Assembly: GCF_030252345.1 (NCBI RefSeq)
Contig: NZ_CP126980.1
Location: 6,339,501 to 6,403,500, forward strand
Source: Actinoplanes oblitus
GTDB lineage: Bacteria > Actinomycetota > Actinomycetes > Mycobacteriales > Micromonosporaceae
Direction of reading: 5' to 3'
DNA length: 64,000 bases
In this document: piece after piece, positions 10,498 to 59,444 of the stretch
How the letters are laid out: each line of letters opens with the position of its first letter
How positions within the stretch are numbered: the stretch's first letter is position 1
Program-made: the position numbers and the translations under genes
The notes under the pieces: model-generated
The model's database searches: none
Told to the model about the DNA's origin: nothing
What the model saw: the letters and a program-made list of their open reading frames with translations, nothing else

Positions 10498-11940
10498 GTG
10501 ACATCTCGACGGCCGTCCGCATGGACCCTCGTGCTCGCCGCCGCCCCGGTGGTGATCGCGGTCTACTACTGGCTGGTGACGCACGACCTGTGGCCGGGCG
10601 CCCAAGTCGGCCTCTACGTCAGCGCGAACGGCGCGTTCGCCGCCGCCTGCCTGGTCGTCGGGGCGCGCCACCGCGACCTGCGGCCGGTGATGCTCTGCCT
10701 CGCCGCGGCCGGCGCCTGGGGTATGGTCGCCGACCTGCTGTTCTACCTCCTGGCGCTGGTCTACGACGACGTCACCTACCCGAGCGTGGCCGACCTCGGC
10801 TACCTGGCCGCCTATCCGACGATGGCGGCCGGGCTGCTGATGATCGTCCGGCGGCGCACGCCGGGCTGGGACGGCGCCAGCGGCATCGACGCGGCGATCG
10901 TCGCGGTCGGCGCCGGGTACCTGGCCTACGAGTTCCTGATCGCCCCGACCGTCAACGTGACCACCGGAAACCTGGCCACGCTGGTGTCCGTCGCCTACCC
11001 GCTGGGCGACCTGATGCTGATCATGGTGGGTGCCCGGCTGGTGCTCGGCGCCGGCCCGCGCAGCCCGTCGCTCTACCTGATCGCCGCCTACCTGGGCTGC
11101 GCCCTGTACGCCGACACGGTCTACACCATCCAGTCGCTGGACGGCACCTACCAGCCCGGGAACTACCTGGACGCGCTCTGGATGGCGGGCGGCTACCTGT
11201 TCGCGGCGGCCGTGCTGCACCCGTCGGCGGCCAAGATGATCGCGCTGTCCCAGGTCACCACCCCGGACGCCACCCCGGCCCGGCTGACCGTCCTGGCGAT
11301 CGCCGCGATCACCGCGCCGACCTCGCTGCTGATCCAGTACGCCCGCGGCGGCGAACCGCACGTGATCGCCGCCGGGATCGCCTGCAACGCGATGTTCCTG
11401 CTGGTGCTGGCCCGGATGGCGGGCCTGGTCCGGGCGCAGCGGCTGGCCGCGATCACCGACGGGCTGACCGGGCTGCGCAGCCGGCGGTACTTCGAGGAGA
11501 CGCTGCGGCACGAGGTGGAGCGGGCCGCCCGGCACGGTGAGCCGCTGGGCCTGCTGCTGCTCGACATCGACCACTTCAAGCGGGTGAACGACACCTACGG
11601 GCACGGCGGCGGGGACCGGGTGCTGATCGAGGTCACCCACCGGCTGAGCCAGCTGGTCCGGCCGGGTGACCTGGCGGCCCGGTACGGCGGCGAGGAGTTC
11701 GCGATGCTGCTGCCCGGCGCGACCCCGGAGGAGACCCTGGCAGTCGCCGAGCGGATCCGCCGCGGCGTGGCGGCCGCCCCGATCGCGGTCTCCGAGGACG
11801 TCCTGTGCCACGTCACCGTGTCGATCGGCGCGGCCGGCGTGCCCGCGCTGCGCGACGTCGACGAGCTGGTGCTGGCGGCCGACCGGGCGCTGTACGCCGC
11901 CAAGAACGCCGGCCGCGACCGCGTCGCGGCCGCCGCCTGA
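10498..11940 (+). CDS. membrane diguanylate cyclase (GGDEF)
   Basis: A 480-aa protein with nine or so hydrophobic helices in the N-terminal 310 residues and a C-terminal GGDEF domain. The active site reads RYGGEEFAMLLPG. An inhibitory-site motif RPGD lies exactly five residues before GGEEF, so product feedback by cyclic di-GMP is expected. LLLDIDHFKRVND supplies the first metal Asp. The start is a GTG; the ribosome site is weak. A paralogue with the same layout is at 56523-57968. The membrane part is not a known sensor domain that I can name, so the input signal is unknown. Confidence 0.9.
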   Translation: MTSRRPSAWTLVLAAAPVVIAVYYWLVTHDLWPGAQVGLYVSANGAFAAACLVVGARHRDLRPVMLCLAAAGAWGMVADLLFYLLALVYDDVTYPSVADLGYLAAYPTMAAGLLMIVRRRTPGWDGASGIDAAIVAVGAGYLAYEFLIAPTVNVTTGNLATLVSVAYPLGDLMLIMVGARLVLGAGPRSPSLYLIAAYLGCALYADTVYTIQSLDGTYQPGNYLDALWMAGGYLFAAAVLHPSAAKMIALSQVTTPDATPARLTVLAIAAITAPTSLLIQYARGGEPHVIAAGIACNAMFLLVLARMAGLVRAQRLAAITDGLTGLRSRRYFEETLRHEVERAARHGEPLGLLLLDIDHFKRVNDTYGHGGGDRVLIEVTHRLSQLVRPGDLAARYGGEEFAMLLPGATPEETLAVAERIRRGVAAAPIAVSEDVLCHVTVSIGAAGVPALRDVDELVLAADRALYAAKNAGRDRVAAAA

Positions 11941-12070: not shown

Positions 12071-12194
12071 TCTCCGGAAGCACCCACGGGCAATGAAGAG
12101 GGCGGCGATCGCTCTGGACGCGCAGCGGCCAGATCGCCGCCCTCGGCCCGCGCGGGAGCATGCGATCCGCACCCCGCAGGGCCCGCGTACATGA
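12071..12194 (+). repeat. dispersed hairpin element, copy A (candidate structured RNA)
   Basis: This 124-bp segment matches 59091-59214 base for base in register. Conserved parts are the 5' block CACCCACGG-CAATGAAG (12081-12098), the loop TGGACGCGCAGCGGCCA (12115-12131) and a 3' block at 12145-12173. The 13-bp stem (12098-12110 with 12132-12144) is perfectly paired here. It differs from copy B at five positions, all compensated. An open frame of 33 codons (12093-12194) spans it, but its changes follow the stem, not the amino acids. It lies between a diguanylate cyclase and a convergent gene. Confidence 0.7.
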
Positions 12195-12204
12195 GGATTC
12201 TGCC

Positions 12205-13314
12205 CTATCCCCAGACTTCCGCGGCCGTCTCGACGATCAGGCGCAATTTGGCCACCTGTTCGTCATAGGTCAGCACATTCCCCTCGACGGTCGAGGAGAA
12301 GCCGCACTGCGGCGACAGGCAGATCTGCTCGAGCGGCACATGTTTCGCCGCCTCGTCGATGCGCCGCTTGAGCGTGTCCTTCGATTCGAGCGTGCCGCGC
12401 TTCGTGGTCACGAGTCCGAGAACGACCATCTTCCCCGGCGGCACGAAACGGAGTGGCGCGAACCCGCCCGACCGTTCGTCGTCGAACTCCAGGAAGAACC
12501 CGTCCACCGCGAGCTCGCTGAACAGCGCCTCGGCGACGAAGTCATAGCCGCCCTCGGCCGCCCACGACGAGCGGAAGTTGCCCCGGCACATGTGCGTGGT
12601 GACGCGCAGGCCGGCCGGCCGATCGGCGATCGCCGCGTTGATCTGCCGGATGTAGCGCAGGTGCTGGTGCTCGGCGTCGTCGCCGCGGTCGGCGAGCAGG
12701 CGGCGCTGGTCCGGGTCGTTGAGATAGGCCAGGCTGGTGTCGTCCAGCTGCAGGTAGCGGCAGCCGAGCGCGTGCACCCGGCGAACCTGCTCGGCGTAAG
12801 CGGCGCTCAGGTCTGTCCAGAACTGATCCTCGTCCGGATAGACCGCCGGATCGATGGCCGCCCGGCCGCCCCGGTAGTGGACCATGCTCGGCGACGGGAT
12901 GGTCAGTTTCGCCGTGACGTCCGGACCCACCGCGGCGTCGAGGAACGTGAAGTCGTCGCCGAAGATCGTCTCGGTGAGCCGGATCGGGGCGTCGACGGCG
13001 AGCGCCGCCGACTCGAAGTCCAGTTCCCCGTCCGCGTTGCGGAAGTGGACCTGGATCTTGTCGTCGGTCGGGTGGATGCCGCCCAGCCGGTAGATGAAGT
13101 CCATGTGCCAGGCGGTACGGCGGAACTCGCCGTCGGTCGCCGAACGCAGGCCGACGTCGCGCTGCATCCGGACCACGTCACGGATCGCGTCGTCCTCGAT
13201 CGCGCGGAGCTCGTCCGCGCCGATCTCGCCGGTGGCGTGCTTGGTGCGGGCGTCGAGGAGCCGGGGCGGGCGGAGCAGGCTGCCGACATGATCCGCCCGG
13301 AAAGGTGGGGTCAT
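12205..13314 (-). CDS. MetE-like cobalamin-independent methyltransferase family protein
   Basis: A 369-aa protein corresponding to the C-terminal catalytic barrel of methionine synthase II (YxjG-like), without the N-terminal half of full MetE. It shows HVGSLLRP at the start, TDGEFRR, QLDDTSLAYL, the zinc-binding region THMCRGNF, EFDDERSGGF and the last Cys ligand in LSPQCGFSST. Such short forms may methylate homocysteine or other thiols from an unidentified donor. I took the ATG at 13314; a GTG at 13329 is possible. The gene is isolated, convergent with the repeat element at 12071-12194. Confidence 0.85.
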   Translation of the reverse strand: MTPPFRADHVGSLLRPPRLLDARTKHATGEIGADELRAIEDDAIRDVVRMQRDVGLRSATDGEFRRTAWHMDFIYRLGGIHPTDDKIQVHFRNADGELDFESAALAVDAPIRLTETIFGDDFTFLDAAVGPDVTAKLTIPSPSMVHYRGGRAAIDPAVYPDEDQFWTDLSAAYAEQVRRVHALGCRYLQLDDTSLAYLNDPDQRRLLADRGDDAEHQHLRYIRQINAAIADRPAGLRVTTHMCRGNFRSSWAAEGGYDFVAEALFSELAVDGFFLEFDDERSGGFAPLRFVPPGKMVVLGLVTTKRGTLESKDTLKRRIDEAAKHVPLEQICLSPQCGFSSTVEGNVLTYDEQVAKLRLIVETAAEVWG

Positions 13315-13335
13315 CCCCCCACTCAACACCCCGGC

Positions 13336-58714: not shown

Positions 58715-58848
58715 ACCGCTTAGCCTTCCGCAATCCCGGCGCGGCCGCAGCCCCTCCCGGCCGACTTCCCCGCTTCCGGCCCATGTTCCACAGCCGACCC
58801 ACCGCGGCCGCCGCGCGCTCGCCCTCGCCCAGCACGGCGGTGCCTCGC

Positions 58849-58990
58849 GTCGCCCTCGCCCTGCACTGTCGCCCCTCGCGGTCGCCCTCGCCTTGCACGG
58901 TCGCCCCTCGCGGTCGCCCTCGCCTTGCACGGTCGCCCCTCGCGGTCGCCCTCGCCCCGCGCGGTCGCCCTGCACGGTCGCGGTCGCCCT
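58849..58990. repeat. 32-bp tandem repeat, about four copies
   Basis: Units starting GTCGCCCTCGCC begin at 58849, 58881, 58913 and 58945, and contain GCACGGTCGCCCCTCGCG. They fill part of the gap 58715-59231. The other recognisable item in the gap is the hairpin element at 59091-59214. Confidence 0.78.
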
Positions 58991-59090
58991 CTCAGCGGCC
59001 CTCGCCCTCGCCACTAAGGGGCGGGCGGATGCCAGCGTGGGAACCCGCTGGCGGGTGCACTGTGCGGAGGCACGGGACTATCCGGTGGGG

Positions 59091-59214
59091 TGTCCGAAAC
59101 CACCCACGGACAATGAAGGGTGGGCTGATCGTCATGGACGCGCAGCGGCCAGATCAGCCCGCCCGGCCCGCGCGGGAGCATGCGATCCGCACCACAGCGG
59201 ACGCGCGAATATGA
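59091..59214 (+). repeat. dispersed hairpin element, copy B (candidate structured RNA)
   Basis: Partner of 12071-12194, same strand, same length. The loop TGGACGCGCAGCGGCCA (59135-59151) and the 3' block (59165-59193) are almost unchanged. The stem GGGTGGGCTGATC (59118-59130) pairs with 59152-59164 through 12 Watson-Crick pairs and one G-T. Five of 13 stem positions differ from copy A and all stay paired. A 33-codon frame (59113-59214) again spans it. It lies between the O-methyltransferase start and the 3' end of a small membrane protein gene. Confidence 0.7.
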
Positions 59215-59231
59215 ATGTCCTGAATTTGATC

Positions 59232-59444
59232 TTATTTAGTAATGATCAAATAAAGCCACCCGGCCAGAAACAGCGCGAGGATCAGCACCATCAACCAGGT
59301 GGGAAAAATCTTGCGACCGGTGCGGGCCGCCTGCACGTCGCGGCGGATGCGCTCCCGGCGACGGTCGGCGCGGCCTCGCGGCGCCGCACCCTCCGGCCTC
59401 GGGCCTCGCGGATCGGCTGACTGGCCGGGATGTGACGTTGTCAT
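59232..59444 (-). CDS. small single-span membrane protein
   Basis: A 70-aa protein: charged Arg/Pro-rich cytoplasmic part (about 1-45, RADRRRERIRRDVQAARTGRK) and one C-terminal helix (TWLMVLILALFLAGWLYLII), so a tail-anchored protein. Its start is 25 nt after the pafA stop, so it may be the last gene of that transcript. Not recognised. Confidence 0.72.
   Translation of the reverse strand: MTTSHPGQSADPRGPRPEGAAPRGRADRRRERIRRDVQAARTGRKIFPTWLMVLILALFLAGWLYLIITK

Follow-up and report, generated by a model that had tools for sequence, protein, structure and literature searches.

REP elements are short palindromes of about 20-40 nt in extragenic space, and RAYT systems carry a Y1 transposase. The ERIC sequences (intergenic repeat units) of enterobacteria are similar in length to the repeat described here, form hairpins, lie between genes and contain no open reading frame; to our knowledge, they have no mobiliser.

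The pneumococcal repeats BOX, RUP and SPRITE, treated in a study that also mentions ERIC, are typically shorter than 200 bp and form stem-loops predicted as RNA; BOX often lies at the 3' ends of genes, all three are over-represented, as are insertion sequences (IS), between convergent genes, and they spread in the past and move little now (PMC3049150, available part of the text). That article nowhere uses the term 'compensatory'. According to the accessible portions of two further sources, extragenic REPs are specific targets of some IS (Tobes and Pareja 2006, PMC1525189) and are treated as target sites of the IS110 element IS621 (PMC11208160).

The genome of Actinoplanes oblitus contains a dispersed repeat for which a literature search, which left out most subscription journals, found no descriptive paper. 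In kind, not as a sequence family, it is an ERIC-like dispersed repeat, with many dispersed, intergenic, non-coding copies of a hairpin. It differs from ERIC in that it keeps the pairing of a variable stem and favours one strand. With REPs it shares the property of being an extragenic hairpin targeted by IS, but it is several times longer. It resembles BOX, RUP and SPRITE, as portrayed in the available part of PMC3049150, in being short and stem-loop-forming, in its excess between convergent genes, in its position at gene 3' ends and in its probable past spread. However, RUP and SPRITE are A+T-rich, which our repeat is not, and BOX is linked to an IS through terminal repeats, whereas we know of no such link here.

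Anatomy and distribution of the repeat

The window, that is, the whole stretch of 64,000 nucleotides analysed (contig NZ_CP126980.1, positions 6,339,501 to 6,403,500), contains two copies. The first-pass annotation had aligned 12071-12194 with 59091-59214 without gaps, and both segments were found at these places. The five compensated differences it reported in a 13-bp stem (A-T/G-C, G-C/T-G, C-G/G-C, G-C/C-G and C-G/T-A) were confirmed in both arms: the 5' arms GAGGGCGGCGATC (12098-12110, copy A) and GGGTGGGCTGATC (59118-59130, copy B) differ at five positions, and the 3' arms GATCGCCGCCCTC (12132-12144, copy A) and GATCAGCCCGCCC (59152-59164, copy B) carry the matching changes. Copy A, with core and tail, occupies 12071-12204 on the + strand (model match 154.6 bits). 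A GGDEF gene (10498-11940, +) lies on its 5' side and a Meth_synt_2 gene (12205-13329, -) on its 3' side, where the end of the copy adjoins the stop codon. After its 5' arm come a 4-nt bulge between the lower stem and the apical helix (12111-12114), the apical helix and loop TGGACGCGCAGCGGCCA (12115-12131) and, beyond the 3' arm, a conserved 3' block GGCCCGCGCGGGAGCATGCGATCCGCACC (12145-12173). Copy B (core and tail at 59091-59231, +, 158.3 bits) abuts with its 3' end the stop codon of a 70-aa ORF (59232-59444, -), beyond which lies a Pup ligase gene; the genes flanking the two copies are unrelated. Its small 5' hairpin TGTCCG...CGGACA (59091-59112) is complete, whereas that of copy A is imperfect; its apical helix and loop lie at 59135-59151, its 3' block at 59165-59193 and a second helix of the consensus fold, GCG.TCCGC ... 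GCGGA..CGC, at 59182-59208. Short imperfect repeats (CTCGCGGTCGCCCTCGCC...) follow one another 5' of copy B, at 58801-59020.

Both copies belong to type I, whose full length of approximately 155-165 bp extends beyond the 124 bp first noted. Its parts are, in order, a 5' lead close to TTTNGATCTCCGG or TTTCGGTGACC, the small hairpin, whose loop contains ACCACCC, the 13-bp main stem with the 4-nt bulge on its 5' side, the apical helix, the 3' block, the second helix and a tail that is richer in A+T and close to AAGATCTTGAAGTTGATCTT. The stretch of 17 nt taken as the 'loop' forms a small apical helix of its own, TGG.CGC/GCG.CCA. The description of this loop as invariant holds nearly for close copies and fails for more distant members, in which the apical helix has changed too. 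By inspection, the 75 matches listed in the own genome comprise 52 of type I (at least 84 bits), 18 of type II and 5 odd or partial ones; type II has a stem of about 16 bp, the same apical part as type I and a related 3' block. One odd copy (G000:C1:7678943-7679036) lacks the main hairpin and keeps both ends. We also folded 16 distant loci, 14 from the genus and 2 from other genera of the family. Eleven had minimum-energy folds of the same plan (long stem, 4-nt bulge on the 5' side, apical helix) built on quite different stems, several of them with a changed apical helix too; the other 5 folded otherwise. The tail was considered as a general gene-end motif and rejected: its octamer TTGATCTT occurs 12 times in a 264-kb stretch, five times in six elements, six times in coding sequence and once elsewhere.

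The repeat, which the annotation had thought possibly abundant, is far more frequent than expected by chance. In the own genome (G000, 9.81 Mb, a single contig), the 21-mer TGGACGCGCAGCGGCCAGATC occurs exactly at 44 places and, with up to three mismatches allowed, at 62; the reversed pattern gave 4. The covariance-model search that had been proposed was carried out with a model built from 31 copies and revealed many further copies with covarying stems: at least 75 matches in G000 (E<=1e-3, best 150 candidates scored) and, in three relatives, at least 95 (G051), 120 (G010) and 51 (G023), counts that may be lower bounds since the best 150 candidates were scored per genome. When 60 genomes of the genus were searched with the DNA around copy B, 26 matched, the own genome included. 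In a draw of 200 genomes from the family, 37 matched the model at 1e-5 under stricter filters; 28 of these were of the genus (own genome included), and the other 9, from five other genera, had one to three weak matches each. The own genome was the sole match in a draw of 249 genomes from the order under stricter filters, and the repeat was not found in the plasmid, phage and viral collections searched. Two exact 21-mers in Chloroflexi MAGs were taken as chance, since the profile fits only around the 21-mer and they read, by eye, as one conserved coding frame. The annotation could assign no known family; likewise, Rfam at the curated gathering score gave no match in the window or in 14 distant-member loci, with sub-threshold rows only.

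Covariation and the folding strand

For the covariation analysis, 94 copies from G000, G051 and G010 were aligned (alignment A3) and scored over 27 pairs of the consensus fold of alignment A2; four pairs of that fold, lying within the 3' block and invariant in A2, were left out. Paired cells made up 98.2% of 2538, against 90.9% after shuffling, and 98.0% of the main-stem cells. Cells changed on both sides numbered 169, against a shuffled mean of 52.2 (0 of 500 shuffles reached 169) and at most 36 with slid partners, and the covariation score was 0.236, against 0.101 when shuffled (reached in 0 of 500) and at most 0.037 in slid structures; the structure was derived from the same sequences, which favours it over the slid control, and the copies are related, so that their cells are not independent. 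Ten pairs changed on both sides (6.4 in shuffles), and further pair types numbered 27 (23.2 in shuffles, 3 of 500 reaching 27).

The main stem was compared separately in 99 of 107 type I elements, the 8 others being dropped because their stem pattern could not be fitted. Among the 54 distinct stems so obtained, 34 were fully paired. The annotation had named unpaired changes in further copies as evidence against selection on pairing; such changes do occur, in that 20 of the 54 stems contain one or more non-standard pairs, but they are rare over the main-stem cells as a whole. Its claim of selection on pairing is thus upheld by the 94 copies, and the predicted folded strand shows the covariation sought in a structured RNA.

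Pair types also point to the strand that folds. Over the 27 pairs, G·U occupied 111 cells and A·C 9 (93 and 9 in the 72 distinct rows); G·U was spread over 11 pair positions, one of which supplied 35 of the 111 cells, and A·C over 7. In the 54 distinct main stems alone, the counts were 33 and 2. Mismatches over the 27 pairs came to 30 cells of G·G and A·G/G·A and 7 of C·C. Since a G·U pair on one strand is an A·C pair on the other, selection on both strands, or template switching, would give approximately equal counts. We therefore read the excess as pointing to folding of the + strand (as the window is read), which may occur as RNA or as single-stranded DNA, bearing in mind that a fold drawn by RNA rules allows G·U and not A·C and so pushes the counts towards the same bias, most of all in the second helix. 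Predicted stability did not single out the + strand (-62.8 kcal/mol for copy A, against -67.5 for the other strand).

Gene context, orthologous sites and IS110 insertions

Just 1 of the 75 own matches shares more than 40 nt with a called gene. Convergent genes flank 44 of the 75 listed and divergent genes 2; the others lie between codirectional genes, which run along the element in 16 cases and against it in 13. These counts include the five odd or partial matches. The 57 of 68 relatives' matches with usable context were distributed similarly (34 convergent, 13 along, 9 against and 1 divergent), as were the 105 type I elements from three genomes for which context could be used (61, 22, 19 and 3), a set that overlaps the other two. 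The copies thus keep away from promoters. As background, the 264-kb stretch has 44 convergent gene pairs (7.7 kb of space) and 45 divergent ones (9.8 kb). Between convergent genes, the 3' end of type I elements was closer than the 5' end to the facing stop codon in 47 of 61 cases (p=2.7e-5), with median distances to the gene end of 23 nt on the 3' side and 217 nt on the 5' side; genes were called by a purpose-made caller, unchecked against annotation, that missed at least one small ORF (beside copy B), and gaps may be overestimated. No orientation was preferred between codirectional genes (22 against 19, p=0.76), which speaks against a signal carried on mRNA. Replication-strand bias was set aside as well, the copies in the own genome being about evenly placed by eye, with no use made of the origin position.

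The 264-kb stretch is largely collinear among G000, G051 and G010, in blocks that are mostly 85-94% identical. For each of the six own copies in it, G051 has a counterpart flanked by the corresponding aligned blocks; G010 has counterparts of four, one of which an IS has split. The intergenic DNA flanking the shared copies aligns poorly. Because most of these sites are shared, movement appears to be rare now. A single presence/absence site was seen, a G010 copy at 8789179 that is absent from G000 and G051, which have 15-18 bp there, and no target duplication was visible at it. Type II copies at G051:C1:1183057 (+) and G010:C1:8813399 (-) seem to lie in the same intergenic region in opposite orientation, as if independently inserted. 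Many G051 copies have, directly on their 5' side, another palindromic repeat of approximately 75 bp (GGCCCTATCC...GGGATAGGGC, with a changing outer stem), which forms a tandem array at locus L194:2000-2560; none was noticed beside the G000 and G010 copies inspected.

At orthologous copies, the loop and 3' block are better kept than fourfold sites. Loop-block identity was 124/126 (six G051 pairs) and 63/63 (three G010 pairs), and that of the 3' block 153/162 and 78/81, whereas fourfold-site identity was 0.795 (G051) and 0.805 (G010). The variable stem, at 77/108 and 46/54, was below the fourfold level against G051 and slightly above it against G010, and the stems mostly stay paired. Orthologous cores are, however, no closer to each other (0.831 identity, 12 pairs) than random copies (0.837-0.854), and the loop type shifts genome by genome: the one-base type is found in 46 of 52 copies in G000, and the two-base type in 30 of 31 in G051 and 14 of 24 in G010. 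Together these two observations indicate that homogenisation or turnover also acts. The pattern at shared sites fits selection on each copy as well as homogenisation, and these sequence comparisons cannot separate the two.

In one relative, G010, the repeat also serves as an IS landing site. An insert of about 1.42 kb breaks three copies of the G010 stretch, always at the same point; the second and third inserts are 91.7 and 93.2% identical to the first, and the inserts encode a protein with DEDD_Tnp_IS110 and Transposase_20 domains. At least 34 left ends of this element were found in G010 (best 40 of 103 candidates scored; for example, 8658636 and 8844303), and all 34 lie immediately after GGCCCGCGC of the repeat. 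Twenty-nine coincide with listed model matches on the same strand at an offset of 95-96; the other five directly follow a repeat 3' arm plus GGCCCGCGC, three of them in copies without the 5' arm or apical part. All six right junctions read (6 of 34) are at CGGGAGC. The equivalent point in copy A is 12153/12154. Matches to the G010 IS end were absent from G051 and only short in G023 and G000. The left end of the IS carries the same nine bases as the target, GGCCCGCGC. In IS110 elements the bridge RNA sits in the left end, and the left target guide of IS621 is nine bases long (PMC11208160, accessible portion), so that we infer that GGCCCGCGC in the IS is a candidate target guide. No words of seven or more bases matching the right half of the target were found in the IS end.

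Possible origin and role

A search for a mobiliser covered two enzyme types. No Y1 transposase (PF01797) was found in G000, G051, G023, G005 or G003 by a search that was positive in 5 of 14 control genomes. There were 5 matches in G010 and 3 in G014, and the six of these eight loci examined had no repeat; mobilisation by a RAYT was therefore rejected, the own genome having no Y1 gene. Membership of the REP/RAYT systems was also rejected, since the unit, though extragenic, is about 155-165 bp long and G000, G051 and G023 lack the gene. Two reverse transcriptases were found in G000 and one in G051, but none in G010 or G023, which argues against retro-mobilisation by a resident enzyme, given at least 120 and 51 copies in the latter two. 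An autonomous version with a gene between copies was likewise discarded: seven loci contain more than one copy or part copy, and at six of them no gene was called in between; the one gene at the seventh (L200, between a full and a part copy) has protein-kinase-like first residues, by eye. A MITE would share terminal inverted repeats with the gene of a resident transposase and be flanked by a target duplication; no such repeats were seen in the copies inspected, and no duplication at the single presence/absence site.

The annotation had suggested a structured RNA family or a hairpin-type mobile repeat. Copy number and covariation support this pair of options, and the choice between them is not yet possible. 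By a modest preference, we consider the repeat to be a genus-level, non-coding dispersed hairpin repeat, like ERIC, BOX or REP, that was multiplied in the past in a single-stranded form. A trans-acting factor would have recognised the hairpin of that form, either single-stranded DNA or RNA, and copies unable to fold would have been neither multiplied nor retained, leaving paired stems of free sequence beside a fixed loop and 3' block. Copies would persist where they are harmless, 3' of genes; today most would pass to descendants at unchanged sites, with a copy gained or lost now and then and the loop type drifting genome-wide. The many copies, their covariation, the bias to one strand, the location at gene ends, the shared positions and the IS110 targeting are all observed, and an orientation untied to host transcription is as expected for an independent element. 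The presence/absence site, the shift of loop type by genome and the unrelated genes beside copies A and B speak for it as well. The better-kept loop and 3' block count against this explanation, since inert copies would need gene conversion to keep them; so do the negative searches for the two enzyme types, the lack of a visible target duplication at the single presence/absence site, the present rarity of movement, the limits of the strand count given above and the similar stability of copy A on its other strand. A more specific reading, which we regard as unlikely, is of a genus-wide mobile or trans-acting RNA or single-stranded DNA element, its stem free in sequence but paired on one strand, whose 3' end would be docked at stop codons by a putative enzyme other than a Y1 transposase or a resident reverse transcriptase, and which would act as a landing pad for bridge-RNA IS110 elements.

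The main rival is a functional structured RNA present in many copies, in which the + strand would be transcribed from its own promoter or an upstream gene, the hairpin would act in the RNA, perhaps in 3'-end processing, in stability or as a protein-binding element, and every copy would be under selection. The G·U excess on the + strand, the conservation of loop and 3' block above fourfold sites beside a stem that varies and mostly stays paired, and the common layout with different stems in distant members all agree with it. Nevertheless, we hold it to be doubtful: an element borne on mRNA should prefer one orientation between codirectional genes, copy number is unequal between sister genomes, and the lack of closeness between orthologous cores gives no sign of locus-specific roles. 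It is improbable that the hairpins serve as transcription barriers, ending transcription before it enters a neighbouring convergent gene. Although convergent placement exceeds divergent placement (44 against 2 of the 75 own matches listed, 61 against 3 of the 105) and the 3' end tends to lie at the facing stop codon, copies between codirectional genes point in both directions at similar frequency, the hairpins of the copies inspected are not followed by a clear T-run, and the convergent gene on the 5' side ends a median of 217 nt away. Moreover, BOX, RUP, SPRITE and IS share the convergent excess (PMC3049150, available part), so that such placement is ordinary for repeats of this kind. Least probable, to the point of being very unlikely, is that folding is not selected and that both arms are rewritten by palindrome repair (template switching in the hairpin) or by gene conversion between copies. 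The shift in loop type and the lack of locus memory do point to some homogenisation, and some stem types are common to several copies; yet many stems found once are fully paired, and strand-blind DNA processes predict similar numbers of G·U and A·C rather than 111 and 9, even though these come from related copies and an RNA-rule fold with one position supplying 35 of the 111.

Whichever reading applies, the copy number and stem variation of this repeat suffice to ask, by comparing G·U with A·C, which strand must fold. The repeat marks spots at gene ends that tolerate insertions, and the 34 IS110 insertions, all at the same position within the repeat, form a natural set for tests of how bridge RNAs choose their targets.
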